Shown: positions 25,889 to 45,193 of the stretch, in pieces
Position numbering within the stretch: position 1 is the stretch's first letter
How the letters are laid out: each line of letters opens with the position of its first letter
Assembly (NCBI RefSeq): GCF_027923385.1
Contig: NZ_BSEC01000002.1
Span: forward strand, 1-64,000
Length of the DNA stretch: 64,000 bases
Reading direction: 5' to 3'
Source of the DNA: Methylocystis echinoides
Lineage (GTDB): Bacteria; Pseudomonadota; Alphaproteobacteria; Rhizobiales; Beijerinckiaceae
Notes under the pieces: generated by a model
The model's database searches: none
What the model was told of the DNA's origin: nothing
Seen by the model: the letters and a program-made list of their open reading frames with translations, nothing else
Program-made: the position numbers and the translations under genes

Positions 25889-26107
25889 TTAACGGCAGTT
25901 CCAGACCCAACCTTTTCCTAAGTCCCAGTCCCAGCAAACGTTGTGGACGTGGCGGCCTTCCTGCTGGCTCCAATCGCGATGGCCATGCCGCCAGTGCCCG
26001 CCAATGTGTTGCATCGCACTATGTTCTCGGTGCTCCTCGCTCTGCGCTATTACCGGACCGGTAAAGAGCAAAACCGAGACGAAACTCGACCACATGATTT
26101 TTTTCAT
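25889..26107 (-). CDS. Small secreted GGHxR/HRDWS/VCW family protein, copy 1
   Basis: A 72-residue exported protein. I start it at 26107 (MKKIMWSSFVSVLLFTGPVI, signal peptide ending AQ) because GAGGGA lies just upstream. The mature ~50 residues read REHSAMQHIGGHWRHGHRDW, SQQEGRHVHNVCWDWDLG and KGWVWNCR. Conserved with two paralogues at 44134 and 44972 are GGH(W/Y)R, HRDWS, VCWxW and a final WxC, giving two Cys that could form a disulphide or bind metal. I know no named family. All three copies lie near copper genes, so a periplasmic metal role is likely but unproven. Confidence 0.8.
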   Translation of the reverse strand: MKKIMWSSFVSVLLFTGPVIAQSEEHREHSAMQHIGGHWRHGHRDWSQQEGRHVHNVCWDWDLGKGWVWNCR

Positions 26108-26416
26108 CTTTTCCCTCATTTTTTCTGAGTGCGGATCACAAAAGAATAAACTTGGGACAGTCAAAAACGCAACGGCTCAGATTGACGCATGTCAAAACTG
26201 ACGCAGCTTGGCTTTATCGTCACCGCGAGGATGGAAAGGAAGGGAACGGTCATTAAAAAGAGGGCGACCCGACTTTCGTCGCCGCGTCAATGCGAAACTC
26301 CCCCTGAAGCGTCTGGCGGCGCGGGTTCAAACTGCTCACCGGCGTTTTCGACCATTACAATTGCTAATCGACCATAGCGGAAGGCGGTCGCTGGCCCCCA
26401 AGTCATAACACGGCCT

Positions 26417-27235
26417 TCACGACGGAGCAGTGAGATCGCGCGGCGGAAGGAAGAGTCGCGGCTCAGGCTTGTGGTCATAGTGCTGCTCGAATCCAGCGTA
26501 GACCTTAGCAAGGAACCCGTCGCACTCCGACCGCGACAGTTTCGTTTTGAGCATAAGAGCATCAACGATTTGGGTAAGCTCATCGCGCAAACACCCTAGG
26601 CGAGAAGCGGTCGCGTTTTGGAGATCTACCAAAAGAGAGAGGCGCAAGCGGCAGGTTTCATCGGGCGTGAGAGCACGAATATCGAATGATTTATGAATAT
26701 ATGATTCCGCCAAGCATTGGGCCGCATGCAAGTTGTTCTCGTCCCCTGTTTTACTCGCTGAGCCCAAGAACAGCCGCTCCGCTACTCGCGGGGCCAACGC
26801 CCGCATTGCGTGCATGGCGTCGATATCGGCGGGCGCGAGTGGGTCGTTGACGTAGTAGGTGAATCCCTTGGGGATCTCAAATCTGACGTCCGCGCCCCAC
26901 AGGTCGACCGTGGCGCTTTCGGGCAGGCGGCGCAGCGAAATTCCGAGTGTTCGAAGGCCGGCCGTAGCCGATATCAGCGCAATGCCTGCAGCGCGCACGG
27001 CCGTCCGCCGGCGCCCAGATAAATCAACGACGAACTCGGATTTGCGTAAGCGGCGCATCTGCGCCCGCATTTCTTTCTCTGCACGAGCCCGTGCCAACTC
27101 TCGTCGACCAGCTCGGCGTTGAGCTTCAATATCGCGCTCGCGAGCTTCAACGGACGCGACGTCCACCGGCTCAGTGGGAGAGACCTTGAGCTTGAGCTTA
27201 CGGCGCGTGTGAGCGATATATCTGCCCATGCTCAA
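26417..27235 (-). CDS. Unknown 272-residue protein
   Basis: The N-terminal ~70 residues are a highly basic, charged helix (VEARERDIEAQRRAGRREL), followed by a hydrophobic segment (AAGIALISATAGLRTLGI) and a globular part with TVDLWGADVRFEIPKGFTYY and APADIDAMHAMRALAPRV. No catalytic motif is evident and I do not recognise the family. It stands alone, upstream of nothing on its strand, and neighbours a broken TonB receptor. The second Met at 27229 is an alternative start. Confidence 0.6.
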   Translation of the reverse strand: MSMGRYIAHTRRKLKLKVSPTEPVDVASVEARERDIEAQRRAGRRELARARAEKEMRAQMRRLRKSEFVVDLSGRRRTAVRAAGIALISATAGLRTLGISLRRLPESATVDLWGADVRFEIPKGFTYYVNDPLAPADIDAMHAMRALAPRVAERLFLGSASKTGDENNLHAAQCLAESYIHKSFDIRALTPDETCRLRLSLLVDLQNATASRLGCLRDELTQIVDALMLKTKLSRSECDGFLAKVYAGFEQHYDHKPEPRLFLPPRDLTAPS

Positions 27236-27374
27236 GTGTCCCTGATCTGGCGTGAGGCAATGGCGTGCAGGTCTTAGTTCATAGTTTCCCGCGAAGCCAA
27301 ATGGAGATCACTGGCAAAATCTTGAAACTTTACCCCTTGCGGCGGGTCCGGCTATCCCACATCCAAATGAGCCC

Positions 27375-29073
27375 TCACTCCCAAAATTTCACGAGTTTGA
27401 ATGGCTCCGTCAGGTCTGGGAGCTTGGCGTCGAAGTCGATGGGGCCGCCAAATGTTAATCGCCAGTTCACCGGCTCAATCGGATGGCCAATGACGTTCAT
27501 CACTCCGACTCCGCAATTTGCGGCCGTGACGGGAAGATTTACGAGACCGTTGCAGGCTCGAAAAAGGAGGTCAGTCGGTATCAATGAGCCGTATGCATAG
27601 GCGATTGATTGCGAGCGGGAGTTGAACATGTTGAAAATATCGAGCTGAAGTTTCCAGCCCTCTTTCCAGCGATAGCCGAGTCGAGCGTTCACCGTCCCAA
27701 TAGCGGGGCTCTTGAAATAGCCATCCTCCGTTAACGAGCGAGGACCAATATAGCGATATTTTAGAGCGCCGAACCACCCCGTCGCCTCGCCCAATTCCAA
27801 AGTTGTCGTTGCGATGATCGGCGCGGCGTTGATCAGAAAATTGCCCGGCGCATTGCCAAGGAAAGTGCCCCAAGGCAACGCGGTTGGCTGAATGAGCTGT
27901 TGGTATAAAAGCGCTTGGTCTTTATCAAAACCGAGGAAGCGCGCGTTGGTCATGGTCAGGTCGCCCTCGAAGCTCAACCATGACAACGGACGATAGTGGT
28001 TTGTGAACTCGATGCCGATGCGGCGGCTCGGCGGGCCGAAAACCGTGTTACCCGTGTCGCCTGAGAAGACATTCTCGGATCGAAGTTGGATCCAGAAGAG
28101 CGTAAGGGCGGACTCGAGCTTATCAATCGCCTTGGTCTTGACGCCAACTTCGGCGGCGGTCGAGGGTGAAAGCAGCGGGCGCTTGGCGACCCATACGTAG
28201 CTCAGATCGTCATTGATTTCATTTGTTGAGAAATTTTGCACGGTGCCGCGCGCATCTGTCGAGTGGAAGCCGCGCCCGAAGTTCAAGTAAAAATCAGTTT
28301 TATCATCGAAGGGGTTGAGGATGACGGAGGCCTTCGGGCTGATCAGTTGCGCGCTGCTGTTTCCGCTGTTGTAAGGCGCGGTATAAAGTTTAATCGGCTG
28401 CAACGGGCTATCGTTGAGATAGCCGACAATCGGCGCGTCGGCAGGCGTTTGGTAGCCGCCAACGCTCGCCCAATAATAATCATAGCGTGCGCCGGCGATC
28501 GTGGTCAGCCAAGGCGCCCATTTCGTCTTCACATCCGAGAGAAGGCTTAAACTCCCTTCAGTCACAAGATCATTGCGCAGATGGTCGTAAACCGCGCGAC
28601 GATAGCTGTCCCCTAAACCGACGCGAATGTCATCCCAGCGCGTCTGATAGCCAAAGCGCAATTCTGAGGGATTATCGGCGAGATTGAACTGGATGCCGTG
28701 GATGCCATTCGAGCCTAATATTGTCCTGCGGTCGAATTGACGGAATTGATCCCCCAGGATTGGATTCGTGAGAAAATAAGTGAAGTTGCTATACATTTGC
28801 AACGTCGAGTGGATGGCGTAGGCGTCGACGTGAGAGTAATGGTTATCACTCTTCTGGTCCCAATGTGCCGACAAGCTGAAGCGCGTTGAATTGGCGCCGT
28901 CGGTTGGGTCGATAGCTCCCCAACGGGAGATCAAACCTTGATCCAATGCGCGCAGCGGAATTTGGTCGGTGGAGTTCCATCGGTTGGCGTAGGCCATGCC
29001 GGTGACGCCAAAACCATCGACTTCCGTGCCGCGCGAATATCTAAGAACCGCGTTTATCTTACGCGCGTCATTA
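27375..29073 (-). pseudogene. TonB-dependent receptor, C-terminal part (split by IS)
   Basis: About 565 residues of a TonB-receptor barrel, from NDARKINAVLRYSRGTEVDG to the C-terminal VKFWE with the final aromatic pattern (RLTFGGPIDFDAKLPDLTEP). The gene is cut at 29073 by an IS5-family element. Removing that element and one TTA copy rejoins GTTGTTCC with TAATGACGCG in frame, giving ..VVPNDARKINAV... The substrate is unknown. The family resembles siderophore/heme-type receptors with a [16 protein letters not shown] plug (in the other part). Confidence 0.88.
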
Positions 29074-30009
29074 GTGTCTGTCCGAAGAAAAGTTGAGCCG
29101 AATGAGTCGGTTATGATTCAACGAGGCGACCTGATTCTTTTGGAGATCGCCGAATGTGGACGAAGGAAAATCGCGCTCGTTATGATCGTAGCAAATTGCG
29201 TTATCCCAGCGATCTGACGGACGCGGAATGGGGATTTGTCGGACCTCTGATCCCGCCTGCAAGGCGCGGCGGCGGCAAGCGCAGGGTGAACATGCGCGAG
29301 GTGATCAACGGTCTGATGTATGTCCTATCGACAGGCTGTCAGTGGCGTGCGATTCCAAAGGACTTCCCACCCAAAAGCACGGTTTATGGCTATTTCGATC
29401 TTTGGACATATGACGGGACGTTAGAACGCATCCACCACGTGCTTTATGTTATGTGCAGGGAAGCGGAAGGGCGCGAGGCCAGTCCGACTGCCGCCGTCAT
29501 CGACAGCCAGAGCGTGAAAAGCGCTGAAAAAGGGGGAGCCATATCGATCCCCATGGCTATGACGCGGGCAAGAAGGTCAAAGGCAAGAAGCGACATATTC
29601 TTGTCGACACTTTAGGCCTGCTGCTTCACGCCGTCGTTCATAGCGCGGACATTCAAGATCGCGATGGCGGCATTCTCGTCTTGAGCACGTTGTTCGGGAA
29701 ATTTCCATTTCTTCAAAAACTGTTCGCCGATGGCGGCTACCGGGGTCCCCAATTTCGCGAGGCGCTGAAGAAAGCCTTGCCGGGTCTTGTGACAGAAATC
29801 GTCAAGCGTTCCGATGCGGCCAAAGGCTTCGAGGTCTTGCCCAGGCGTTGGGTTGTTGAGCGAACTTTATCCTGGCTGGGCCGCTGTCGCCGATTGGCCA
29901 AGGATTGGGAAAATCTTAATCGGAAGGCGCTCGCTTTCTTGCGCCTCGCCTCCATTCGCCTCATGCTCAGAAGGCTCTGTAATCAGTCATGAAGTCTTCG
30001 GACAGACTC
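29074..30009 (+). mobile_element. IS5-family (IS427-like) insertion sequence
   Basis: A 936-bp element with terminal inverted repeats G(T/A)GTCTGTCCGAAGA (15 bp, one mismatch), flanked by TTA direct repeats at 29071-29073 and 30010-30012. It carries one transposase in two frames. It interrupts a TonB-receptor gene, whose frame is restored on precise removal. Confidence 0.92.
29154..29992 (+). CDS. IS5-family transposase, probable -1 frameshift
   Basis: DDE transposase in two overlapping frames. Frame 1 (from 29154) has LTDAEWGFVGPLIPPARRGG, GLMYVLSTGCQWRAIPKDFP and the first Asp in AVIDSQSVKSAEKGG. The rest (DPHGYDAGKKVKGKKRH, the second Asp in LFADGGYRGP, the Glu in RWVVERTLSWLGRCRRL) is in the -1 frame. 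The change occurs at AAAAAGGGGG (29527-29536), a slippery run like those used for programmed frameshifting in IS427-group elements. The joined protein is about 280 residues and looks intact. Confidence 0.85.
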
Positions 30010-30557
30010 TTAGGAACAACCCAAGGACCGTTGTAGAATTGCCCTTCGGCGGCGCCGAGAATATTGCCGCCCATGAACTCCCAGGATTTCATGCCAAATT
30101 GGCGAGCAAAACCAAACTCGCCCGCCGTTGTCGTGAAGACTCCCTGAGGCACTCTGGTCAGATACTGCATGCGCAGCGTGCCGGCGTTTGAGAAATCACC
30201 GTCCTCGACATTGTAGGGGCCTTTTCGGGCGTCGATCGAGGCCAGCAACTCCGGCATGATGAAATTGGCGTCGGCCCAGCCTTGACCATGGCCGTGAGTG
30301 CGAGCGTTGATGGGCATACCGTCGATATACAAAGCGAGATCTGTGCCGTGGTCGAGGTCGAAGCCTCGCAAATAGTACTGGTTCGCTTTGCCTTCGCCGC
30401 TGTGCTGCGTGACCGCGAGGCCAGGAACGATTTCGAGCGCCTCGCCAGGCCGGTAGAAGGGGATCGTGTTGACCTGCCCGCCGGTGAAGAACCGCTCGCT
30501 GGAGGAGGGCATTTGCTTCGGGCCGACTGGATAGTCGATCTTCGGACCGAGAGAGCT
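30010..30557 (-). pseudogene. TonB-dependent receptor, N-terminal plug part
   Basis: This part reads [20 protein letters not shown], then [40 protein letters not shown] and [20 protein letters not shown]: a TonB plug domain. It joins the barrel part at 29073 after removal of the IS5-family element. On its 5' side the frame is cut at 30557 by an IS3-family element. On the far side of that element, 31797-31840 could encode a few more residues before a stop. No signal peptide is found, so the gene is dead. Confidence 0.85.
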
Positions 30558-30640
30558 GGCCCCGCAAATTCGGACAGTAGCTTGAGTGGAATTTCTGCCT
30601 GACTGCGGCGAGGATTCTCGCTGCGAATCAGGAGCATTCG

Positions 30641-30949
30641 ATGACGAAGAGGAGCCGCCGGACGCATTCGCCGGCGTTCAAGGCGAAAGTGGCGTTGGCC
30701 GCGATCAAGGGCGAGAAGACGTTGGCCGAGCTGGCGCAGCAGTTCGACGTCCATCCAAACCAGATCACGACATGGAAGAGCCAGCTTCTCGAAGGCGCGG
30801 CGGGCGTTTTCGGGCAGGAAAAGGCGGAGAGCAAAGAAGCCGCCGTCGATTTGAAGGCGCTTCACGCCAAGATCGGCGAACTGGCGCTTGAGAATGATTT
30901 TTTGTCCGGCGCGCTCAGCAAGGCCGGCCTGCTGAGCGCAAAGCGATGA
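30641..30949 (+). CDS. IS3-family transposase OrfA
   Basis: A 102-residue helix-turn-helix protein ([40 protein letters not shown]) with a C-terminal leucine-zipper helix ([19 protein letters not shown]). It binds the element ends. Its last four bases overlap orfB as ATGA. Confidence 0.92.
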
Positions 30950-31773
30950 TTGATCGCAGCCACGACCTCCCCATTGCCCGGCAGGCGAAAGCGCTCGGCG
31001 TCGCTCGCAGCTCGGTCTATTACAGGCCTCGGCCGGTTTCGGCCGAAGACTTGAAGCTCATGCGTCGCCTCGACGAGCTGCATCTCGATTTTCCCTTCGC
31101 GGGCGCGCGGATGCTGCGCGACCTCTTGCGGCGCGAAGGCCTTGCCACAGGCCGTCGCCATGTCGCGACGCTGATGAAGCGGATGGGCATCGAGGCGATC
31201 TATCGTCGCCCGAACACCAGCAAGCCGGCGCCGGGGCACAAGATTTATCCCTACCTCCTGCGCGGCGTGAAGATCGAGCGCCCCGATCATGTCTGGGCGA
31301 TGGACATCAGTTACATCCCCATGCGGCGCGGCTTCGTCTATCTAGCGGCGGTCGTCGATGTGTTCAGCAGGCGCGTGCTGGCGCATCGCGTGTCGATCAC
31401 GATGGAAGCGGCGTTTTGCGTCGAGGCGCTCGAGGAGGCGCTGGCGAAACACGGGAAGCCCGAGATCTTCAACACGGACCAGGGCAGCCAGTTCACCAGC
31501 GTCGATTTCACCGGCGTTCTGCTGGATGCGAAGGTCTCGATCAGCATGGACGGCAAAGGCGCCTGGCGCGACAATGTATTCGTCGAGCGGCTGTGGCGCA
31601 GCGTGAAATACGAGGAGGTCTATCTGCGCGCCTACGACAGCGTGTCCGAGGCGCGCGCCTCGATCGGCCGGTATCTCGCCTTCTACAATGAGAGGCGCCC
31701 GCACTCGAGCCTTGACGGCCGCACACCCGACGAGGCCTACTTCCGAAAACAGGAAACGGCGATGGCCGCATGA
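30946..31773 (+). CDS. IS3-family transposase OrfB (rve integrase core)
   Basis: A 275-residue retroviral-type integrase. An N-terminal HTH_21 region ([20 protein letters not shown]) is followed by the catalytic core, with Asp in [13 protein letters not shown], Asp in [13 protein letters not shown] and Glu in [18 protein letters not shown], and a C-terminal [20 protein letters not shown]. All DDE residues are present, so the element could be active. Confidence 0.93.
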
Positions 31774-31796
31774 CCGTCGCCACCGATTTTGTCGCA

Positions 31797-32153
31797 GCTC
31801 TGGTCGGGCTCGTATGGGGCTTTGGAAGTCAAGGCGAGAATTTGGTCTCATGGCGTCTTTCTTCCGTAACAGTCGGAGATGTGCGGCGTGCGTTCCCGTA
31901 ATAATCCAAGGCTGATTCCCCTCCGTCCAGGCCGACCTTGGCCTGCAAGCTCGTATCCGGGGAGCGTTGGCTCCGACCATGATGCCCTTTTCGCCAGGGC
32001 TTTCGGGGAACCAAGGAGGTCGGGACCAATCTACGCGGCGGCATTTGAAGCCAGAGCCCGACACGGCGACCCGCCCACCTTGGAACTTTCGAAGAATTCC
32101 GCGTCCGCTCTCCTTCCTCCGTAACCTTTCGCACTCACGACAGAGCGATCTGC
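31797..32153. other. Gene-free stretch between two insertion sequences
   Basis: About 360 bases between the IS3 element and the IS110 transposase stop. The first ~45 bases may be the remaining 5' part of the split TonB-receptor gene. The rest probably includes the terminal region of the IS110 element. No gene is supported. Confidence 0.45.
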
Positions 32154-33314
32154 TCACGTCGCGAATCTCACTCCGTCGGGGATTTCGCCGGTCTCGACGA
32201 AGCGCCAAAGGGCGACGAGCAGCTTGCGGGCGAGCGCCACGATCATGATCTTCTTGATCCGCCCTTTGGCGCCGTTGACGCGTTCGTGAAACCATCTGGC
32301 GAGGCCACTTTCCGGTTGAAACTTGAGCCAGCGCCACGCCAACTGGCCAAGAAGTCGTCTCACGCACGAATTGCCGTTCTTGCTGATCCCCTGCTCACGC
32401 CTCGAGCCCCCGCTATCATAGGGCGTGCCCGAAATGCCGACGAAAGCGGCCAGCGCACGTCGATCCTTGAAGCTTCGGGCGAACACCTCCTGCGCCAAAA
32501 CGGTCGCTGTTTCCACGCCCAGACCAAAGACGCTGAAAAGCAGCTGTATCTTCCGCTCGACGGGATCGGGATCGGCTTTTGTCGCGACCTGCTGGCGCGC
32601 GGCCTCAATCTCCTTAAGCTGCTGCGAGAGCAAGCGATGCTGCGTCAACAGTCGCTCGACGCTGCTCATCGTATTTGGTGGCAACTCTCGACCGTCGGCG
32701 GTCTTGAGCTCGGCGAGCTTTTGCTCGGCATTCTTAAGGCGTGGCTTAAAACTTTCGACCCCATAGCGGACGAGAAGCGCGTCGATCTGGTTCTCGACCT
32801 TCAATCGGGCGGCAACGATCGCTTCCCGGCGGCGTCCTGGCTCACGCATGTCTTCTTCAGCTTCAGTCGGGATCGGCGCCATCGTGCAGCGGCGCGGCTC
32901 GCCCCGTAACCAACCGAGCAATGTCCCAAGCAGAATATCCACGTCGAGACGATCGCTTTTGGCGCGTCGTCCGCGTCGTTCGACCGAGATGCTCGAGGGA
33001 TGCATGACGTAGACCTCGAGTCCACGCGCTTGCAAAGCGCGCGCGATCCAGAAGCCATCGCGCCCCGCTTCATACCCCAAGACAACGCGCCCGACCTCGA
33101 ACCCTGCCTTGCGCGCCTCGATCTTCAATCGTGCAAGAGCTTTCAAGACGCCTTCGATGTCGCGCGCGTCAATGCTGCGCTTCGTGCGCCGATCGACACC
33201 AGGCGCAACGGCCCCCAAGAGCCAGGACTTGCCGCTGAGCTCCAGCACCGCGACAATCGTAATCGTATGGTCATAAGCGGCCATGGGCATGCGTGGATTA
33301 AAAGACTTACTCAT
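32154..33314 (-). CDS. IS110-family transposase (IS110 group)
   Basis: A 386-residue DEDD transposase. The RuvC-like N-terminal domain has the first Asp in MAAYDHTITIVAVLE, the Glu in VVLGYEAGRDGFWIARAL, and Asp residues in KSDRLDVDILL. The C-terminal Tnp_20 domain contains LLFSVFGLGVETATVLAQEV and GISGTPYDSGGSRREQGISK, with the serine region. I start it at 33314 (MSKSFNPRMP) because AGAGGAG lies just upstream. Ends of this element are not certain. IS110 enzymes are guided by a structured RNA from the non-coding end of the element. Confidence 0.9.
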   Translation of the reverse strand: MSKSFNPRMPMAAYDHTITIVAVLELSGKSWLLGAVAPGVDRRTKRSIDARDIEGVLKALARLKIEARKAGFEVGRVVLGYEAGRDGFWIARALQARGLEVYVMHPSSISVERRGRRAKSDRLDVDILLGTLLGWLRGEPRRCTMAPIPTEAEEDMREPGRRREAIVAARLKVENQIDALLVRYGVESFKPRLKNAEQKLAELKTADGRELPPNTMSSVERLLTQHRLLSQQLKEIEAARQQVATKADPDPVERKIQLLFSVFGLGVETATVLAQEVFARSFKDRRALAAFVGISGTPYDSGGSRREQGISKNGNSCVRRLLGQLAWRWLKFQPESGLARWFHERVNGAKGRIKKIMIVALARKLLVALWRFVETGEIPDGVRFAT

Positions 33315-33500
33315 CGACGGCTCCTCTCGGATCTGCTCATCCGCCAGGATACCGAGTTCCGCGACCGCCCGCCCCATAGCGTCTACGCCCTCCCGGCGCC
33401 GCGACAAAATCGAAACGCCCCGCGTCCAGCAAACCGGCAGAGTTCCACTTAAAATCCGCGGGGCGCTGTCCAAACAACCGGGGCCAGATCTGAAGACAAT
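33315..33500 (-). ncRNA. Candidate IS110 guide (bridge) RNA region
   Basis: In IS110-group elements the guide RNA is transcribed from the non-coding end upstream of the transposase. The region just 5' of this transposase has no ORF of its own and contains GC-rich inverted stretches such as CCCCGCG and CGCGGGG (near 33418-33465). Only position and composition support the call. Confidence 0.3.
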
Positions 33501-33632
33501 TTCCATACATGTTCAATGCGAATAGGCACCGCCATTCTCGTCCAGGCTACGAACGTCGGCGCGAGAACCTGCGGCTTTCCACAGCCAACTGCGAGACTCG
33601 GTTTCAAAAGGAAGGGAGCAGCTTGCTGGTCT

Positions 33633-33821
33633 TTACCGCCCCTCAAAATAGAGGATGACCAAGCCGATCACAATGATAGCGAGAGTAACATACCAGCTCG
33701 AAGAGGCGGGTTGAGGCTCTTTTTCGCGCTGAACTTCTCCAAGCCGAATCCCGCATTTGGGGCAGCTAGTAGATAGCTCGTTAACCTCAGCTTTGCAGCC
33801 AGGACAGACCAAGCGGGACAT
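33633..33821 (-). CDS. Zinc-ribbon single-pass membrane protein
   Basis: A 62-residue protein. An N-terminal zinc ribbon has Cys pairs in LVCPGCKAEV and SCPKCGIRL (about residues 6-27). A polar linker then leads to one C-terminal membrane helix (WYVTLAIIVIGLVILYF). A strong AGGGAGGTGAGG ribosome site precedes the ATG. Function is unknown; such proteins are often membrane-anchored adaptors. It lies between the IS110 gene and the putative nuclease on the same strand, about 100 bases from the latter. Confidence 0.75.
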   Translation of the reverse strand: MSRLVCPGCKAEVNELSTSCPKCGIRLGEVQREKEPQPASSSWYVTLAIIVIGLVILYFEGR

Positions 33822-33928
33822 GCCTCACCTCCCTGACGATTTAGGTGCGCCTATCACCCCTCAACTTAAGGGCGCGCATTGGGTTCCGTTAAGCCCCTCC
33901 GATGCTTAAGAGATGGTCACGGACATCT

Positions 33929-35577: not shown

Positions 35578-35592
35578 TGTATGGATGCCCCC

Positions 35593-35847: not shown

Positions 35848-36876
35848 TCAAACCGGTGCAGACGCAGGAACTCGATAGTCCTCACCTTTTGTGAGCATGG
35901 CCCAGACCACGCGGGCCATTTTGTTGGCAAGCGCAATCGCGACCAGCCGGCGCGGCTTGCGCGCGAGCATACGATAAAGCCACGTTCCCTCAGCCGCCCC
36001 CTTACGGAGTGCGCTGCGCACGACGGCCATCGCACCAATGATCAGCAACCGTCGAATATCTCGTTGCCCCATTTTTGAGGTTCTTCCGAGAAGCTGCTTG
36101 CCTCCGGTAGAGTGTTGGGCTGGAACCAGCCCAAGCCAAGCGGCAAAATCCCGTCCACGTCGAAAGACCTCCATCGGAGGGGCGAATGTTTCGATCGCTA
36201 TGGCGGTAATTGGCCCGATCCCTGGCACGGTCCGAAGCCGCCGGGTCTGCGAGCCGCATTCGGCTTCGCGAGCGATTACTTTCTCGAGGGCGACGACCTT
36301 TTCCGAAAGCTCACTGATTTGCGTGAGAAAAATTCGCGCCAACTCAACGACGAGGAGCGGCAGAGACGTTGAAGGATCATCGACCGCTTCCGCAAGCGTT
36401 TTTACGTTTGTTGATCCTTGTGGCGCGACGACGCCATGTTCGGCCATGTGGCCACGCAGCGCGTTGATCAATTGCGTGCGCTGGCGAACGAGCAGGTCTC
36501 GGGTGCGAAATAGCATGGCGTGCGCCTGCTGCTCCTGCGCCTTGACTGAGACGAAGCGCATGGTCGGCCGGCTTGCCGCCTCCGCGATTGCCTCCGCGTC
36601 GGCAGCGTCGTTCTTTTGCCGCTTGACAAAGGGTTTGACGTAAATGGGCGGGATCAAGCGAACCTCATGACCAAGCTCTTGGATCGCCCGTCCCCAGTGA
36701 TGTGAGCTCCCGCATGCTTCCATCGCAACGATGCAGCGAGGCTGCTCGGCCAAAAAGGCAAGGATTTTCTCTCGGGAAAGCTTCTTACGGAACGCCACGC
36801 CGCCAATAGCGCAAGCGCCGTGGAGCTGAAAGACACGCTTTGCAAGATCAAGACCGATGATGCTAGCCTTTTCCAT
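35848..36876 (-). CDS. IS110-family transposase (IS1111 group)
   Basis: A 342-residue transposase. The DEDD domain has IIGLDLAKRVFQLHGACAIG, RCIVAMEACGSSHHWGRAIQ and KNDAADAEAIAEAASRPTMR. The Tnp_20 domain has RLRTVPGIGPITAIAIETFA and DFAAWLGLVPAQHSTGGKQL with the conserved serine region. I start it at MEKASIIGLD (36876); the upstream extension crosses the element end. All acidic residues are present. Confidence 0.92.
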   Translation of the reverse strand: MEKASIIGLDLAKRVFQLHGACAIGGVAFRKKLSREKILAFLAEQPRCIVAMEACGSSHHWGRAIQELGHEVRLIPPIYVKPFVKRQKNDAADAEAIAEAASRPTMRFVSVKAQEQQAHAMLFRTRDLLVRQRTQLINALRGHMAEHGVVAPQGSTNVKTLAEAVDDPSTSLPLLVVELARIFLTQISELSEKVVALEKVIAREAECGSQTRRLRTVPGIGPITAIAIETFAPPMEVFRRGRDFAAWLGLVPAQHSTGGKQLLGRTSKMGQRDIRRLLIIGAMAVVRSALRKGAAEGTWLYRMLARKPRRLVAIALANKMARVVWAMLTKGEDYRVPASAPV

Positions 36877-36960
36877 GGATGCCCTCTTCGTTGTTGCGGT
36901 GCTCGAGGCGCCACGACCTTGGCACATTACGATGCCGTCGGGAGGGGGCATCCACTCCAT

Positions 36961-37852
36961 CAAGATTTTGATCCTCCAGACGCTCTACACACTCGGCGAC
37001 GATGCGACGGAGTTCCAGATCCGCGACCGCTTCTCCTTCATGCGCTTTCTCGGGCTCGAGCTGCATCACGCCGTGCCCGACGCCAAGACGATCTGGCTGT
37101 TTCGCGAGCAACTCGCGAAGGCCGGCGCGATCGACGCGCTGTTCGAAAGCTTCGACGCGCATCTGAAGACGCAAGGCTTTCTCGCCATGTCGGGGCAGAT
37201 CGTGGACGCGACCCTCGTCGCCGCGCCGCGTCAGCGCAACACCGACGACGAGAAAAAGGCGATCAAGGAGGGGCGCATTCCGGACGACTGGAAGGCGAAG
37301 CCGAAAAAGCTGGCGCAGAAGGATCGCGACGCGCGCTGGACGTTGAAACGCGCCAAGGCGCGGCCGGCGAAGGACGGCGAGAAGGCCAAAGTGGAAATCG
37401 CGATCCCAGTGTTCGGCTACAAGAACCACGTCTCGATAGACCGCGCCCATGGGCTCATCCGGCGCTTCGCGGTGACGAACGCCGCGGCGCACGACGGCGC
37501 GCGGCTCCCCGAGGTTCTCGACAAGAGCAACACGGCGAGCGCCGTTTGGGCGGACACGGCTTATCGTTCGCACGCCAACGAAAAGCACATGGAGAGATGC
37601 GGCTTCGTTTCGAAGGTCCACTTCCGGCGGCGCAGGGGAGCGCCGCTGACGACGGCGCAGGCGAAGGCCAACGCAGCGAGATCGAAAGTGCGCTCGGCGG
37701 TGGAGACGGTCTTCGCCGCGCAGAAGCATCGCTTCGGATTGTTCGTGCGAACCATCGGCGCGACGCGCGCCAGGGTGAAGATCGGCCTCGCCAACATCGC
37801 CTACAACGTCACGCGCTTTATCTGGCTCTCGACCCGGCCCGTTGCGGCATGA
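36961..37852 (+). pseudogene. IS5-family transposase, C-terminal fragment
   Basis: The remainder of the interrupted transposase: ILILQTLYTLGDDATEFQIR, DRFSFMRFLGLELHHAVPDA, GQIVDATLVAAPRQRNTDDE (first Asp), AVWADTAYRSHANEKHMER (second Asp), and SAVETVFAAQKHRFGLFVRT (Glu). It joins the fragment ending at 35577 through TTCAAG. The full protein would be about 360 residues. Confidence 0.9.
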
Positions 37853-37983
37853 ACGCCGAGGCCGCCGCGACACGCGGCCGCCTTACAGACGCAGCATAGG
37901 CTGCATTCCCCCCGTCAAAGCGCCAGGCGCGCCGTTCTCACGTCGCCGCAGCCGCTGAAGACGGTTTTTCGAGGCGTCCAAGC

Positions 37984-38290
37984 GTTTTTAGAAGGCCGAA
38001 AACCTCACTTTTGTTGCGCAGGCCTCTCGCCAATTGCATAGGCGGTCGAACCTAGGCTCAGGCGGGCGAGTGCTGCACGAAGGACAGCCTCGCAAGCGCG
38101 CTAACGGCGCGGCGGAAAAGGACAGAATGGCCCGCGTCTCAGCCGACGCGTTGCGTTTAATGGTCGTCAGTGTTTGCACCGAATCTGCAAAGCTTCCGCC
38201 TGAGCGCCGCAAGCAGGCCACCTGTCCCGCGCGCTGGAGGCCTTGATCTAAATGGCCTATGATTAAGTCCCGCGTTCCCAGATTGGGAGT
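37984..38290. other. Gene-free stretch
   Basis: About 300 bases between the IS5-family element and the DUF2933 gene. No coding signal is seen. The copper genes that follow probably have their promoter here. Confidence 0.45.
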
Positions 38291-38524
38291 ATGACGCGTC
38301 CGGAGCAGCCAAAAATGCGATTTTCACTTCCGCGAACCCCCCTCCTGCTTCTCTACGGACTGGCAGCCGCATTTCTTGTTTATTGGCATTGGCGGCACAT
38401 TCTTGACGCTCTCCCATTTTTAGTCGTCCTCGCATGCCCGCTGATGCATCTCTTCATGCACCATGGACACGGCCATCGCCACGACGCGCCGCCTGAAAAT
38501 CACAGAGAAACGAAAATTGACTAG
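38291..38524 (+). CDS. DUF2933 small membrane protein, copy 1
   Basis: A 77-residue protein with two hydrophobic helices (PLLLLYGLAAAFLVYWHW; ALPFLVVLACPLMHLFMHHG) and a His-rich tail (HGHGHRHDAPPENHRE). The CPLMHxFMHxGHG motif is the DUF2933 signature and is repeated in the protein at 55385. It lies 21 bases before a copper ATPase gene, and the motif residues (Cys, Met, His) suit Cu(I). The start could be the Met at 38315. Confidence 0.8.
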   Translation: MTRPEQPKMRFSLPRTPLLLLYGLAAAFLVYWHWRHILDALPFLVVLACPLMHLFMHHGHGHRHDAPPENHRETKID

Positions 38525-38545
38525 GTTGAGCTGAGCGGGGAAGTC

Positions 38546-40837
38546 ATGGGGCACGAGCATCATCACCCTCGTCATCACTCAGACCCCGCCGAGCATAAGA
38601 CGCATTCTGATCTGCGACCTTCGCATGCCTCTTCCAGCCAATCTGGCAAGGGTGACCAGAGCCCCACGCCTGCCGGAGAAGGCGCCATCTACACTTGTCC
38701 CATGCATCCGCAAATTCGCCAGGTCGGCCCCGGAAACTGCCCGATCTGCGGGATGACGCTCGAGCCCGTCATAGCCGCCGTAGAAGAGGGACGAAGCGCC
38801 GAGCTCATAGATATGACGCAGCGGTTCTGGGTTGGGTTGGCGTTGACGATTCCTGTCTTCCTGCTCGAGATGGGCGGCCACTTCTTCAATCTTCATGATT
38901 ATATTTCGCCCGAAGAGTCCGGGTGGGTGCAGTTTGCCTTGGCGACACCGGTGGTCTTGTGGGCCGGTTGGCCATTTTTCGTCAGAGGCGCCAAGTCACT
39001 GCTCACTCGGCGCCTCAATATGTTCACCCTCATCGCCATGGGCACGGGCGTCGCGTGGACCTACAGCGTTATCGCAGCTTTTGTGCCCGCAATCTTTCCA
39101 GCGACGTTTCGCAGCGCCGAGGGCGCGGTTCCTCTCTATTTCGAGGCGGCGGCCGTCATCACCGTGCTCGTGCTCCTTGGACAAGTTCTTGAATTGCGCG
39201 CCCGCGAACAGACCGGGGGCGCTATCCGCGCTTTGCTTAACCTTGCGCCCGTCACAGCGAAGCGTGTTCGCGACGACGGCTCTGACGAGGAGGTCGCGCT
39301 GGATCAGGTCAGCGTGGGCGACCGCCTGCGTGTGCGTCCTGGAGAGAAGGTGCCGGTCGACGGGGCTCTTGTCGAGGGCCGAAGCTCGGTGGACGAGTCC
39401 ATGGTGACGGGCGAGTCCATGCCGGTGACCAAGAGCGTTGGCGACACTGTCATCGGCGGCACGCTCAACCAGACTGGCGGCTTCATCATGAGAGCAGACA
39501 AGGTTGGCAGCGACACGATGCTTTCCCGCATCGTCGACATGGTCGCTTCCGCCCAGAGAAGCCGCGCGCCAATCCAGCGCCTCGCTGATCAGGTCTCCGG
39601 CTGGTTCGTCCCTCTTGTCATCCTCGTCGCGCTGTTTGCGTTTGGCGCCTGGTCGATCTGGGGGCCGGAGCCCCGCATGAGCTATGGGCTGATCGCAGCC
39701 GTCTCGGTTCTCATCATCGCCTGTCCCTGCGCCCTTGGCCTCGCGACTCCGATGTCGATCATGGTAGGCGTGGGGCGCGGCGCGCAATTGGGCGTCCTGA
39801 TCAAGAACGCCGAGGCGCTCGAGCGGCTCGAGAAGATCGACACGCTCGTTATCGACAAGACCGGCACGCTGACAGAGGGCCGGCCTCGCGTAACGGCCAT
39901 CCGGCCGGTCGCGGAAATAACAGAAAACGAACTTCTAAGAGTCGCGGCGAGCCTGGAGCGCGCAAGCGAGCATCCGCTTGCGCACGCGATCGTCAAGGCG
40001 GCCTCAGACCGTGACTTGAGCCTTTCAGAGGCGACGGACTTTAATTCGCCGGTCGGAAAGGGGGTGACAGGCCGGATCGGCGAGTCGGCGGTCGTCATTG
40101 GCAATCGGCGCTTCCTGGAGGAACTTGCGATCGACGCGGGAGCGCTCGACGCCGTCGCCGAAGGGCTAAGGGAGGATGGCGCGACGGCAATTTTCGTCGC
40201 CGTGGATGGCCGCCCGGCAGGCGTCATCGCGATCGCTGATCCGATCAAGGAGACGACCCGGGATGCGCTGCAGGCGCTGGTCGATGAAGGAATCTCGGTC
40301 GTCATGCTCACGGGCGACAATTGGACATCGGCGCGAGCTGTCGCGAGGCGCCTGGGCATTTCGGAGGTCGAGGCGGAAATCCTCCCGCAGGATAAGAGCC
40401 AGGTTGTCACCCGGCTGCGTCAATCTGGACGGGTCGTCGCGATGGCTGGAGATGGCGTGAATGACGCGCCGGCGTTAGCCGCGGCCGATGTGGGCATTGC
40501 CATGGGCACAGGCACCGACGTGGCGATCGAGAGCGCCGGCGTCACCTTGCTTAAGGGGGATTTGCGCGGCATCGTGCGAGGGCGTCGCCTATCGAGGGCG
40601 ACCATGCGGAACATTAGAGAAAACCTGTTCTTCGCTTTTATCTACAATGCAGCCGGCGTGCCTGTCGCGGCAGGCGGGCTATACCAGGTCTTCGGCATTT
40701 TGCTGTCGCCGACAATTGCTGCGGCGGCCATGGCGTTGTCCTCCGTTAGCGTCGTCTTGAATTCACTGAGGCTCAGGCGGGCTCGGATCGAGCCCAAGCG
40801 TCTACCAATCATGCCGCCGTTCCCAGGCATCACCTGA
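38546..40837 (+). CDS. copA: CopA-type Cu(I)/Ag(I) P1B ATPase
   Basis: A 763-residue pump exporting Cu(I)/Ag(I) to the periplasm. The His-rich N-terminus ([20 protein letters not shown]) leads to a heavy-metal-binding YHS-like domain, [20 protein letters not shown] (about 49-68), instead of an HMA domain. Signature elements are the actuator loop MVTGESMPV, the membrane metal site [11 protein letters not shown] (about 393-403), the phosphorylation site [11 protein letters not shown] (Asp about 437), [15 protein letters not shown] and [20 protein letters not shown]. Membrane helix 8 carries [15 protein letters not shown]. With DUF2933 it forms a two-gene copper unit. Confidence 0.95.
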
Positions 40838-40851
40838 GGATGGTTGAAATC

Positions 40852-41302
40852 CTATGGGTCTTGTTCGACGCGTCGGAGGCTGTCGAACGCGCCGAGGAAC
40901 GGTAGGAGCCCTTCAAGAGCGATGCCCGCAAGCATCCCGACGAAAAACAACACGGCCTGAGGATCGAGAAGTCCCAGGTTGAACACCGCTGGTCCGGGAC
41001 AGACGCCCGAGAGGCCCCAGCCGAGCCCAAAAATCGTTGCGCCCACGAGCATCTGTCGGTCAACCGCCCGAATTGAGGACGGCTGCGCCGAACAGCCAGT
41101 TAGAGGTATTTCCTTCTTTTCCACCATCTGAAATGCAAAAAACCCCACCAACACGGCGCCTCCCATCACCAGGGCGAGCGAAGGGTCCCAAAGGCCCGAA
41201 AATATCAAGAAAACTCAGCACCTTACCTGGATCTGTCATGCCGCTGACGTAAAGACCCAGACCGAACACGGCGCCGAGGACGAAAGTAAGAAGGATACGC
41301 AT
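40852..41302 (-). pseudogene. DUF6691/YeeE-type transport subunit, one-base frameshift
   Basis: The first 35 residues (MRILLTFVLGAVFGLGLYVS, GMTDPGKVLSFLDIF) read in one frame and the remainder (GLWDPSLALVMGGAVLVGFF, MLVGATIFGLGWGLSGVCPG, FVGMLAGIALEGLLPFL) in another. A single missing base near 41200, at GATATTTTCGGGCC, explains it. The conserved Cys in GVCPGPA is present. Partner of the YeeE/YedE gene 12 bases upstream. An assembly error is possible. Confidence 0.8.
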
Positions 41303-41314
41303 TTTCTCGGTCCT

Positions 41315-41746
41315 TTACCCGATCACGTGCCGAACGACGAAAACGGTCGTCATCGCTGATCCCATAAAAGTGCACGTCGCGACCAATGATCGCAGCGAGA
41401 GGCGGGACAGGCCGCAGACTCCATGTCCGCTCGTGCAACCGCCGCCGAGGCGCGAACCGAAGCCAACCAGAAAGCCAGCAAACCCGGTCAAGGGGTAAGC
41501 GATCTGGAAAGCTGGTCGCGCTGGCGTTTCGAAGAACCCGATCAGAAGAGCCGACGCGAAGAGGCCAAAGAGGAAGACGATCCGCCAATCAACGTCACCC
41601 GGGCGCGGTGGAAACAGCCCCGAGAGGATGCCGCTGATTCCTGCGACTCGGCCAATGAGAAGCGCCGTCAGCCCTGCAGATCCCCCGATCAGCGCGCCGC
41701 CTGCGAGCGCGCTCAAGGGCGAAAAATGCGTCCAGTCGATTTGCAC
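41315..41746 (-). CDS. YeeE/YedE family (sulphur-compound) membrane protein
   Basis: A 143-residue inner-membrane protein with about four helices. The signature GFGSRLGGGCTSGHGVCGLS (about residues 98-117) with its two Cys is typical of YeeE/YedE proteins, which transport thiosulphate or related sulphur species. It is the first gene of a pair with the frameshifted subunit at 40852. It is divergent from the FadL-type porin gene, with a very AT-rich gap between them. Confidence 0.87.
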   Translation of the reverse strand: MQIDWTHFSPLSALAGGALIGGSAGLTALLIGRVAGISGILSGLFPPRPGDVDWRIVFLFGLFASALLIGFFETPARPAFQIAYPLTGFAGFLVGFGSRLGGGCTSGHGVCGLSRLSLRSLVATCTFMGSAMTTVFVVRHVIG

Positions 41747-41893
41747 GTGATTTCCTTCAACAAAAGCAATAGCTTACAGCCCCGCTCGCGGCCCTTCCAG
41801 TTATTTTAAGCGCGGAGTTGCTGAGAAGCTATATACAAACACTATAAACTATATAATAGTAGTGGTCTAAGGAAGACAGAACAAGGTCGCTTC
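41747..41893. promoter_or_regulatory. AT-rich divergent promoter region
   Basis: The stretch 41830-41860 (ATATACAAACACTATAAAC followed by TATATAATAG) is strikingly AT-rich for this DNA and contains TATAAT at 41852-41857, 36 bases before the porin start. No good -35 box is visible, suggesting activator or repressor control. Confidence 0.5.
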
Positions 41894-43204
41894 ATGATCC
41901 CGTTTCCCCGCCTCGCCGCGTTCCTTCTGGCCGCCGCAACTCTGAGCACTCACGCCGAGGCCACCGAGGGCTATTTCTTGGAAGGCTATGGCGCGCGCGA
42001 AAAAGGCGTTGGCGGCGCCGGCGCCGCAGACTCGCGTGATCCTCTCGCGTTGTCGATCAATCCAGCCGGCCTCGTGGACGTGAATGATCAATATACGCTT
42101 GGCCTCACCGCCTTTTCGCCCGACCGAGGCTATTGGGCCTCAGGCCCGGGTTTTGTCGCGCCGGGCTTTGTCCAAAGCGGACGTGCCCTCTTTCCCATTC
42201 CGAACGGGGGTTATAGCCAGCGCTTCAACCAAACGTCAGCGTGGGGCGTCGCCGTATATGGCAACGGCGGCATGAACACGACCTACTCGCCGAACTATGT
42301 GAGCGAGTTTTTTGGCAGTCCGATGTGCGGCAAGACTGGCGTATTCTGTGGCCGCAATGCTGGCGTCGACCTAAATCAGGCCTACATTACCGCTGGCTAC
42401 GCCCAACGTTTCGGAAATCTTTCCCTAGGTTTTGCGCCGGTGTTGGCCGTGCAAATCTTCAAAGCAAGAGGCTTGGAGGTCTTCGCGCCTTTTTCGATGG
42501 CGCCAGAACAACTCACCAACCATACCTACAACTGGTCTGTGGGGGCGGGGGTCCGCGCGGGCCTGCAATACCGCGTCACCGACAGTCTTAGGGTCGGCGT
42601 CGCCGGCTCCTCGCCCATCTGGATGTCGCCCTTTGAGAATTACAAAGGCTTGTTCGCCAATCGAGGCGACTTCGACATTCCCGCAAATATCACGGCGGGC
42701 GTTGCCTATGATATCCTGCCGACCTTCACCCTGCTGGCCGACTGGAAGCATATTTTCTATTCTCAGGTTCCCTCCGTCGGCAATTGGTCGACGGAACAAT
42801 TGCCGCTTGGCGCCATCGGCGGTCCGGGATTTGGCTGGCGCGACATCAACGTGATCAAAGTCGGCGCGGAATATCGCGGGTTCGAGAAGCTCACTCTTCG
42901 ACTAGGCTACAGCTACAACAACAATCCCATCAACCCGCGTGACGTCACGCTGAATATTCTTGCGCCCGCTGTGACGAAGCATCACATCAGTGGCGGCCTC
43001 AGTTATTTTGTGACGCCTTCGTCGTCGATTGATCTGGCCGCAGTCGTTTCGCCGCAGGCTACGGTGTCGGGTGTCGAGCGCACGCCGCTTGGACCCAATC
43101 CCATGCGGACGATCACGCTTTACCTCAACTCGTTCGAAGTCACGGCAGGATGGACGCACCGCTTCGATGCGGCGTCAACAACTCCTGTCACCGCAAGATT
43201 CTAA
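41894..43204 (+). CDS. OmpP1/FadL-family outer-membrane transporter
   Basis: A 436-residue outer-membrane porin for hydrophobic compounds. A signal peptide (PRLAAFLLAAATLSTHAEAT) is followed by the family N-terminus EGYFLEGYGAREKGVGGAGA and DSRDPLALSINPAGLVDV. Barrel strands follow, with GYAQRFGNLSLGFAPVLAV and INVIKVGAEYRGFEKLTLRL, ending TARF. Its neighbours (YeeE/YedE, OsmC) suggest import of a sulphur-containing or other hydrophobic molecule rather than fatty acid, but this is inference. Confidence 0.9.
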   Translation: MIPFPRLAAFLLAAATLSTHAEATEGYFLEGYGAREKGVGGAGAADSRDPLALSINPAGLVDVNDQYTLGLTAFSPDRGYWASGPGFVAPGFVQSGRALFPIPNGGYSQRFNQTSAWGVAVYGNGGMNTTYSPNYVSEFFGSPMCGKTGVFCGRNAGVDLNQAYITAGYAQRFGNLSLGFAPVLAVQIFKARGLEVFAPFSMAPEQLTNHTYNWSVGAGVRAGLQYRVTDSLRVGVAGSSPIWMSPFENYKGLFANRGDFDIPANITAGVAYDILPTFTLLADWKHIFYSQVPSVGNWSTEQLPLGAIGGPGFGWRDINVIKVGAEYRGFEKLTLRLGYSYNNNPINPRDVTLNILAPAVTKHHISGGLSYFVTPSSSIDLAAVVSPQATVSGVERTPLGPNPMRTITLYLNSFEVTAGWTHRFDAASTTPVTARF

Positions 43205-43318
43205 CCTCTCCCCCAGTTTGGCCTGACGCCTTCGGGATCAAGTCCCTTGTCCAAGGTTCCACCAATCAGCCTCGTCGGGCACTCAGCCTCATCACTGTGA
43301 AAAAGGAGAAAATACCGG

Positions 43319-43813
43319 ATGTCCGTCACTGAGCTCGTCAACACCGCCAAGTCGATCTTCTCATCCAACCCGGATCGAGCCCAAGCGAGATTCAGAGCGC
43401 ATCATGACCTTACAGGACCGACGGAAGTAACTGTCAAGGTAGGCTCAGGCCACCGTTTTTCAGTCGACGAACCTGAAGCCTTGGGCGGCGGCAACTCGGC
43501 AGCCAATCCTGTGGAGTACGCCTTGGCTTCGCTCGGTTCCTGCCAGGCGATCAGCTACAGGGTTTGGGCTTCGCAACTTGGACTCGAGCTCGAAAAGGTC
43601 GAGGTGGAAATCGAGGGTGATATCGACCTGCGGGGGTTCTTTGGCGTCGATGAAACTGTTCGACCCGGTCTCAACGCCGTTCGCATGCGAGTGCGCTTAA
43701 CGGGACCTGAACCCGATGCTCGGTATGAGGAACTTGCAGCGGCCGTCGACGCCCATTGCCCGGTGCTCGATCTCTTTCGCAACCCAGTCTCCGTTGAGCG
43801 AGAATTGGCGTAG
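43319..43813 (+). CDS. OsmC family protein
   Basis: A 164-residue OsmC/Ohr-type protein. Conserved elements are the substrate-pocket segment GGGNSAANPVEYALASLGSC (Cys about 78), the following helix with AISYRVWASQLGL, and VDAHCPVLDLFRNPVSVERE with the second Cys (about 150). These paired thiols reduce organic peroxides or act on sulphur compounds. An AAGGAG ribosome site lies upstream. Placement near YeeE/YedE fits thiol or sulphane-sulphur handling. Confidence 0.9.
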   Translation: MSVTELVNTAKSIFSSNPDRAQARFRAHHDLTGPTEVTVKVGSGHRFSVDEPEALGGGNSAANPVEYALASLGSCQAISYRVWASQLGLELEKVEVEIEGDIDLRGFFGVDETVRPGLNAVRMRVRLTGPEPDARYEELAAAVDAHCPVLDLFRNPVSVERELA

Positions 43814-44133
43814 CTCTCCAGGGTCAGCCACCACCCTTGCCGGTCGGCCCACGTCCCCCTGCGAGTTTGGAGCGGTAGGGCCTTAAGTCTGCCGCAGGCA
43901 ATCGAGCGAGCCGCATTTCTCAGACCTGCCTCGCGCGGGTTTGGGAGGTCGTCCCGGTGCGCCTGATAAGTGAGCTTGGCCAAGGAATCCGCCTGCACGG
44001 CCTCCCGTTTTCTCCTTCGACGCGCGCCCTAGATCATTTCAATACCCGGTCGCCCTTGGTCTGTCTGTAACGCAGCGCCGGCCATCGGCCTGGGGCGGAC
44101 AAAGCGGGAAAACCACCAGGCAAAGGCAATCAG
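43814..44133. other. Gene-free stretch
   Basis: About 320 bases after osmC-like. No ORF with motif or ribosome site; probably promoter for the small secreted protein that follows. Confidence 0.45.
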
Positions 44134-44355
44134 ATGCGCAAGCTCGCTTTCCTAACCGCAGCAGCGTTGCTACTTGCTGCTCCCGTGGCTCAGGCCCAGC
44201 ATGCCGGCCCGTTCCCCGGCAGTGGGAATTTGCAGAATTACGGTGGGCATTGGCGATATCAGCACCGCGATTGGAGCCGTCCTTGGGGTCCGCCTAACCC
44301 CGGCGTATGCTGGGAGTGGAATTCTTACATGGGCCAATGGGAGTGGCAGTGCTAG
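44134..44355 (+). CDS. Small secreted GGHxR/HRDWS/VCW family protein, copy 2
   Basis: A 73-residue exported protein: signal peptide MRKLAFLTAAALLLAAPVAQ, then a mature part with NYGGHWRYQHRDWSRPWGPP and NPGVCWEWNSYMGQWEWQC. Compared with copies 1 and 3 it keeps GGHWR, HRDWS, VCWxW and the final WxC. It lacks the REHSAMQHIG segment and most of the His residues after HRDWS, so it is the most diverged member. Unknown function. Confidence 0.75.
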   Translation: MRKLAFLTAAALLLAAPVAQAQHAGPFPGSGNLQNYGGHWRYQHRDWSRPWGPPNPGVCWEWNSYMGQWEWQC

Positions 44356-44971
44356 GAAACTCCCAAAGCTGCCGAGCGGGTGGGAGCCATCGGGCTCGCC
44401 GTTGATCTTGTAGACGAGGCGCGGCTTCGCGCCCGCTCTCTCCGCGACCCCCCAGGCCATCAGCGCCCGAAGCTCGGTCGCGCGTCAATCCGATTGATCT
44501 TGGCGCGTTTGCCGCGGCGATCGACCAACAGGCTACGGGACCGATCTGCGGCGGGATACCGTGCCCGGTCGGTGTGCCATGTATCGCGCTTCGTCGCAGA
44601 CGACGACGGTGTTGACGCCGTCGGTGATCAGCCTAACCCGGAGCGCCAGAAGCGCACCAACATCGCCGCAACCCACCACTTCAGTGCGATCTTGTGAGCC
44701 AGTCGCATATACAAGCCGACTGCCTCCTTCGACCGACTTTTTGCACCTAAACGCAGAATCTCTTAACACTCAGACTTCGGCCGGCTACCGCGATTGGCGC
44801 GCCTCGTTTTCTATTGAAGCAGCAGGGGCGGGCACAAGCGCCAGGGCGATTTTCTTGGATGGCTTCACGATGAAACCGGCCAGGCTCCTTCAAAACCTGT
44901 GGTATAGTCGCCACTTACTGATCAGGGTGAGCTGATTAAGCGCGCCCAAAGCCTGAAAAAAGGGGGAGAAC
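44356..44971. other. Gene-free stretch with possible decayed sequence
   Basis: About 615 bases between two small-protein genes. Minus-strand frames around 44380-44470 give TELRALMAWGVAERAGAKPR, which looks protein-like but is short and interrupted. I cannot assign it. Probably remnants. Confidence 0.4.
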
Positions 44972-45193
44972 GTGCGTAAACTTTCGCTTTCGATCGCCGC
45001 CTTGCTGTTCGCGGCCTCCGGCCCTGCTATGGCGCAAAGTGACGAAAATCGCGAACATAGCGCGATGCAGCATATCGGTGGCCACTATCGGCATATGCAC
45101 CGCGACTGGAGCGGGCAGGAGGGACGCCACACGCACAGTGTCTGCTGGAACTGGGACCCTGGGCATGGCTGGGTGTGGAGCTGCAACCGGTGA
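44972..45193 (+). CDS. Small secreted GGHxR/HRDWS/VCW family protein, copy 3
   Basis: A 73-residue protein starting at GTG, with GGGGGAG six bases upstream. Signal peptide LSIAALLFAASGPAMAQ; mature part NREHSAMQHIGGHYRHMHRD, WSGQEGRHTHSVCWNWDPGH, GWVWSCNR. It is closely similar to copy 1 at 25889 along its whole mature length. His is frequent (8 in ~50 residues) and both Cys are conserved. It lies about 1.4 kb upstream of the cus-type efflux genes. Confidence 0.8.
   Translation: MRKLSLSIAALLFAASGPAMAQSDENREHSAMQHIGGHYRHMHRDWSGQEGRHTHSVCWNWDPGHGWVWSCNR

Follow-up and report, generated by a model that had tools for sequence, protein, structure and literature searches.

CusF (PF11604) is a small protein encoded together with cusCBA near a copper-ATPase gene. 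Its fold is a barrel of five strands, and with a site made up of His/Met2/Trp it takes Cu from CopA and passes it on to CusB (PMC7558416). SmbP (PF16785) is likewise a small, secreted metal-binding protein. Csp proteins (DUF326), which are Cys-rich four-helix bundles, are also copper-linked, and bufferins and methanobactins are small copper-related peptides. The present study concerns a family of small, probably secreted proteins that occurs three times in a 64,000-nucleotide stretch of Methylocystis echinoides DNA (RefSeq assembly GCF_027923385.1, contig NZ_BSEC01000002.1, positions 1 to 64,000 of the forward strand), this whole stretch being called the window throughout. Members of the family are homologous and conserved, many are placed beside copper-efflux genes, and the copper-linked members are enriched in His.

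As with CusF, members belonging to part of two subfamilies, A and C, are encoded with cus efflux genes, and their Trp and His residues are possible ligands. However, the Methylocystis family is Met-poor (no Met in 43 of 70 distinct core sequences), has a conserved Cys pair and, at several loci, has cusF as a neighbour, while the three window proteins gave no match to PF11604 in Pfam or NCBIfam at E-values (E) up to 10. Neither was PF16785 matched at E up to 10; smbP adjoins a few members (loci L077, L104 and L108, and an M. rosea plasmid), and the SmbP neighbour in L104 does match that model. A DUF326 open reading frame (ORF) adjoins one window copy. Unlike Csp, the family carries few Cys, exactly two in 68 of the 70 distinct cores, spaced 11–13 residues apart, and no DUF326 or Csp1 profile in Pfam or NCBIfam matched the three window proteins.

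The Cys pattern of bufferins and methanobactins differs from that of the Methylocystis family, for which no linkage to MNIO enzymes was seen, although MNIO genes (PF05114) are present in 33/39 genomes of the genus. Genes that are short, multi-copy and lineage-restricted and end in a conserved Cys/Trp segment would suit the precursor of a peptide that is modified to bind copper in the manner of a bufferin or methanobactin. Yet the nearest MNIO gene on the same contig lies 13.9 kilobases (kb) away, with 28 members (hand-picked) sharing a contig with one and short contigs limiting this test, and no maturase was found among 20 annotated neighbour representatives of 63 recurrent clusters, so that such a precursor is considered highly improbable.

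Searches of the three window proteins against Pfam, NCBIfam and PHROGs returned nothing above cut-off; a DUF6705 score of 14.6 bits (cut-off 24.4) and a single weak PHROG at E 0.31 were set aside. A PDB sequence search with a 90-sequence profile gave no match at E up to 1. Foldseek found no match for one of two AlphaFold models and three matches at E >5 for the other; both models have a predicted template-modelling score (pTM) of 0.27, and no fold is claimed. Among 5.8 billion proteins, 142 relatives were retrieved, and only three of the 120 listed bear a name other than "hypothetical" or "uncharacterized". The names "Spy/CpxP" and "invasion protein IalB" on three relatives were dismissed; those proteins are without a listed Pfam domain. 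Among the matches listed from open-licence full-text papers, PMC7558416 and PMC12811070 included, nothing concerned the family. The initial annotation of the window had known of no description of these proteins, and as far as these searches reach, they brought up neither a family model nor a solved structure or paper that would alter this. The family appears to be a new one of a known kind, the small accessory proteins of copper operons.

The window copies and their family

The three window genes are real and homologous. The ORFs read as initially annotated, with the motif order GGH(W/Y)R, HRDWS, VCWxW, WxC, and are as follows:

25889..26107, minus strand: copy 1, subfamily A; ATG start; precursor with a hydrophobic N-terminus; core GGHWRHGHRDWSQQEGRHVHNVCWDWDLGKGWVWNC
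44134..44355, plus strand: copy 2, subfamily B, His-poor; ATG start; core GGHWRYQHRDWSRPWGPPNPGVCWEWNSYMGQWEWQC
44972..45193, plus strand: copy 3, subfamily A; GTG start, with GGGGGAGAAC immediately 5' of it

A purine-rich stretch lies 5' of the ATG of copy 1. The core common to the three copies is GGHxR[HY]xHRDWS…VCWxW…WxWxC. Copies 2 and 3 match each other in BLASTP at E 6e-11, and copies 1 and 3, which had been called nearly alike, have the same residue at 38 of the 49 positions of the mature part (78%).

The family was initially described as three-membered, which holds inside the window only, since the source genome carries nine copies over three contigs. With a 28-sequence profile, the family was detected in 26/39 Methylocystis genomes at 96 strong places, the number of copies per genome ranging from 0 to 9; Methylocystis sp. 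Sn-Cys is among the named relatives with family loci. Outside the genus, the same profile found one divergent relative among 397 sampled genomes of the bacterial family (genome G286, E 1.6e-9), the other six matches lying at E 1e-3 to 1e-2. The 90-sequence profile found nothing convincing outside the genus among 397 genomes sampled from the order and 398 from the phylum (best E 2e-4); in these profile scans at most 14 candidates were scored per genome, and distant relatives may be missed. Matches that fell outside the genus and were weak, with E between 6e-5 and 1e-2 and internal stops in several of them, were not counted as members. The G286 match (L204, at G286:C64:7680-7799) is His-rich, belongs to another genus of the same bacterial family and has neighbours that are not copper-like by eye; it looks like a real but divergent relative.

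Subfamily labels are motif-based, and the accompanying tree, built from short sequences, has moderate support. In this tree C is nested within A (A+C clade support 0.84), while B, to which copy 2 belongs, groups with F (F support 0.91). Further subfamilies are a Gly-rich D and a small E, and the cores of subfamily F are without His.

The family is under purifying selection. The median ratio of non-synonymous to synonymous substitution (dN/dS) is 0.31 over 352 pairs. Of 24 independent pairs, 22 have a ratio below 1, and the two above it are both cross-subfamily comparisons without alignment.

In five Methylocystis plasmid records from PLSDB (including L205, L206 and L207) no feature is listed at the best match, the gene table being incomplete. 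An IMG/VR "viral" contig carries a subfamily-B-like copy at L214:3940-4158; a nearby sensor-kinase-like gene by eye resembles the neighbour of the L083 copy, and this contig is probably host sequence beside a prophage. The family copy at L106:7988-8086 is truncated by an early stop and adjoins a small Cys-rich ORF that appears bufferin-like by eye and has no Pfam match above cut-off.

Association with copper genes

Neighbourhoods extending some 8 kb to either side of each member, shorter at contig ends, were compared with random 16-kb control regions of the same contigs, 57 being used of 61 drawn. The 96 strong places are the set used for the methane monooxygenase counts. In the fetched loci, 93 frames were recognised (the L141 copy, holding a stop, was missed), and these together with L202, L203 and L204 make up the 96-member neighbour set. 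The 92-member copper set leaves out four in which the core pattern failed, namely L068, L094 and L106 (incomplete frames) and L204; of these, L068 and L094 lie 300 nucleotides (nt) from a copper ATPase gene. The markers scored within 4 kb were Cu-ATPase, CusA, CusB, CusC, CusF, multicopper oxidase and DUF326.

Copper linkage is real but subfamily-dependent. With marker queries taken from the window and match loci and picked after the neighbourhoods had been seen, and with identity thresholds fixed after a looser-threshold run, a scored copper gene lies within 4 kb of 41/92 members and of 0/57 matched controls (Fisher 3e-11). The window region and the near-identical G026 region are both counted here; figures for distinct cores correct for this double counting and give 27/70, and of the 26 clusters formed at 80% identity, 10 have half or more of their members linked. 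At the looser thresholds, Cu-ATPase alone occurs within 4 kb of 30/96 members against 0/57 controls, single copper markers reaching up to 3/57 controls within 4 kb and up to 5/57 within 7.5 kb (CusA). In 25/92 members the copper gene is on the same strand at less than 500 nt, a spacing seen in 0/57 controls on either strand. The association with copper genes proposed at the outset was borne out, far above the matched controls, while a second one, with methane monooxygenase genes, was not. The nearest pmoA/amoA on the same contig is 19.7 kb from any of the 96 members; 28/96 share a contig with one and 68/96 have none on their contig, some of these contigs being short, so that close linkage is possible there. 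The pmoA/amoA family is carried by 31/39 genomes of the genus.

A mobile or duplicating small gene might come to lie near copper genes only by sharing plasmids or islands with them, and the uneven, multi-copy distribution (0–9 per genome) together with transposase genes near some copies would be expected of such a hitch-hiker. The controls, however, come from the same contigs and are 0/57, and neither the close same-strand spacing in 25/92 members nor purifying selection fits a passenger, leaving this already disfavoured explanation very unlikely.

The linkage is concentrated in subfamilies A (17/26 within 4 kb) and C (18/21). In subfamily C, cusA lies 47–94 nt upstream on the same strand in 17/21 members, as measured from tblastn match extents, and copA 215–455 nt downstream on the same strand in 12/21, with neither gene in three of the 21. 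The annotation of M. rosea pGW6_2 gives the same order: FixH, TolC, adaptor, CusA, an unannotated gap and Cu-ATPase. In subfamily A, five members follow cusF by 22–113 nt and several are upstream of a YtkA-cusC-cusB-cusA run. In addition, a D member on pGW6_1 is the last in a series of cusA, copper-binding protein, DUF411, P-type ATPase, TPR protein, DUF2933 and methyltransferase.

Conserved residues and possible function

In 90 aligned sequences R40, R44, W46, S47, C58, W67, W69 and C71 are invariant and, among His residues, only H43 reaches 90%; in a 104-sequence alignment five of those eight positions are invariant and the rest are at 90% or above. The His content of the core has a median of 5 in the 27 copper-linked distinct cores versus 3 in the 43 others (p 1.4e-4), and HxHx(1-2)C occurs in 23/27 and 16/43, respectively. 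Because His is enriched in copper-linked cores, a scaffold of Arg, Asp-Trp-Ser, the Cys pair and Trp appears common to the family, with rich His mainly a property of its copper branch.

AlphaFold models show an N-terminal helix at residues 2–20; what they predict for the mature part is chiefly a hairpin at the C-terminus, W59-D62 with G66-W69, with C58 and C71 at its ends and block-mean predicted local distance difference test (pLDDT) values of 74 and 81. An AxA-type site lies near residues 13–34 in 109/123 proteins, as judged with a loose pattern. The Cys pair is read as a probable structural disulfide, which would fit better than a two-Cys metal site because both Cys are kept in the His-free, copper-unlinked subfamily F and flank the predicted hairpin.

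The initial annotation had suggested, from Cys together with His and Trp, a periplasmic binder of Cu(I) or Ag(I) or else a redox-active mini-protein. A part for His gains from its enrichment in copper-linked members, but a two-Cys site is weakened by the retention of both Cys in subfamily F. If the two Cys, with Trp, themselves bound Cu(I)/Ag(I) as a thiolate site, or cycled between dithiol and disulfide as a redox mini-protein, one would expect the copper linkage, the two invariant Cys and the conserved Trp near each; a Cys/Trp motif that stabilises Cu(I) in Ctr4, cited in PMC7558416, points the same way. Against this, the same Cys occur in subfamily F, where 0/9 members have scored copper neighbours and the core is without His, and they stand 11–13 residues apart at the predicted hairpin ends, without a CxxC. 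The periplasm, moreover, is oxidising, and a metal or redox centre formed by the Cys pair is regarded as unlikely.

The preferred explanation, held with middling confidence, is that the His-rich A and C forms are periplasmic copper buffers or carriers, built on a disulfide-closed Trp hairpin and serving Cus/CopA efflux. The family would then be a genus-level one of probably secreted mini-proteins of about 50 residues when mature. Its fixed part would be the Trp-rich beta-hairpin VCWxW…WxWxC, presumably closed by one disulfide and preceded by the conserved Rx3RDWS. In the copper branch (A, including copies 1 and 3, and C) this scaffold bears the His cluster GGHxRHxHRDWS…HxHxVC, and the proteins may bind copper in the periplasm as buffer or carrier. 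The genes would be co-transcribed with their copper neighbours. Copper released by a CopA-type ATPase, or loose in the periplasm, would be kept harmless or handed to CusBA, as CusF does elsewhere. For methanotrophs, which require copper for particulate methane monooxygenase and must survive its excess, a small protein whose gene in this genus lies between those for CusA and CopA, and which is absent from the searched family databases, could represent a missing periplasmic step.

Several observations weigh against a copper buffer or carrier. No scored copper gene is near 51/92 members, including 9/26 of subfamily A, and linkage is low in B (3/11, two of these being the window copy and its G026 twin), D (3/15), E (0/3), F (0/9) and others (0/7). 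Since A and C form one clade, linkage to copper genes may have arisen independently only a few times. Furthermore, smbP is without enrichment near members (3/92 versus 1/57), and a search for a shared upstream motif gave only words resembling ribosome-binding sites, with no copper-responsive promoter motif. A carrier role would be redundant where cusF coexists, as it does in several loci, and both AlphaFold models are of low confidence, each with a pTM of 0.27.

Subfamilies B, D, E and F, including copy 2, may have another function. All nine F members (L076, L081, L113, L116, L121, L127, L130, L133 and L137) lie between the genes for a [NiFe] hydrogenase large subunit and HycI-type protease and that for an M15 peptidase. 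Counted over the neighbour set, 11/96 members (nine F, two B-like) are within 2 kb of the [NiFe] hydrogenase large subunit and HycI-type protease genes versus 0/57 controls. Chromosomal B members adjoin genes that, by eye and among the neighbours listed, are apparently unrelated to copper. These placements would be natural for a general secreted scaffold or adaptor that binds no metal, contributing to envelope stability or acting as a small subunit of various membrane machines, and recruited by copper operons, the hydrogenase locus and others; the conservation of Arg, Asp, Trp and Cys, but not of most His, agrees with it. The His enrichment in copper-linked members and the frequent cusA-copA placement in subfamily C suggest a copper-specific role there, and a purely non-metal scaffold, though a serious alternative, is rather unlikely.

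A wider reading, unlikely and offered tentatively, is that of an evolvable mini-scaffold specific to Methylocystis, in which the disulfide-closed Trp hairpin, in up to nine copies per genome, has been fitted to different metal machines. Ligands would be gained and lost on a fixed scaffold, with a His cluster for copper export and none at the nickel-iron hydrogenase. If true, this would make the family a new class of proteins that handle metals in the periplasm. The sister clades, one rich in His and one without it, provide a natural test of what such a scaffold needs for metal binding.

Gene neighbourhood in the window

The recognised genes around the three copies are listed below:

22479..24479, plus strand: DUF4396 and multicopper oxidase ORF; Pfam above cut-off, NCBIfam copper models below their cut-offs
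25554..25853, plus strand: DUF326 Cys-rich ORF, copper-storage-like; PF03860 at 24.7 bits against a cut-off of 20.4, NCBIfam Csp1 model below cut-off
38291..38524, plus strand: DUF2933 protein (PF11666)
38546..40837, plus strand: copper-translocating P1B-type ATPase; TIGR01511 above cut-off, HMBD domain
43319..43813, plus strand: OsmC-like protein (PF02566)
46987..47463, plus strand: YtkA-like (FixH-type) protein (PF13115), first of the cus run
47460..48710, plus strand: CusC-type outer membrane efflux protein (PF02321)
49772..51178, plus strand: CusB-type adaptor (PF16576)
51175..54336, plus strand: CusA/CzcA heavy-metal RND pump; TIGR00914 above cut-off
54816..55280, plus strand: DUF411 protein of the CopG type (PF04214)

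Copy 1 is convergent with the DUF326 ORF, 35 nt away, and the multicopper oxidase ORF is 1.4 kb from it; this pair of neighbours is seen again in the near-identical G026 region and nowhere else (2/96 members). Copies 2 and 3 follow the DUF2933, P1B ATPase and OsmC genes and precede those for YtkA, CusC, CusB, CusA, DUF411 and a methyltransferase. Going upstream from copy 2, the first recognised gene is OsmC at 320 nt, with the Cu-ATPase at 3.3 kb, and the YtkA-cusC-cusB-cusA run begins 1.8 kb downstream of copy 3. The three copies are linked to copper genes, as first proposed; that all of them flank such genes is literally so for copy 1 only, copies 2 and 3 lying inside a copper region.

Near copy 1, an ORF at 25031-25285 (plus strand) with a signal-like N-terminus encodes His/Asp/Gly/Trp repeats (GHGDWDHHG-like units) and is without a Pfam match. 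On the other side of this copy, a TonB-receptor-like gene at 27375-30512 (minus strand) is, by eye, apparently split by a transposase-like insertion at 29154-29992, and an intact TonB-receptor ORF (Pfam) at L090:9697-12231 adjoins the copy 1 counterpart there.

A second family of small proteins, of about 110 residues, is represented in the window at 46577-46906 and 48881-49213 (both plus strand) and also at L073:10875-11231. Its members have a hydrophobic N-terminus, Cys, His and Met residues and LRPP at the C-terminus, and are without a Pfam match at E up to 0.1. By tblastn, relatives of this second family occur within 7.5 kb of 19–21 of the 92 members versus 0/57 controls.

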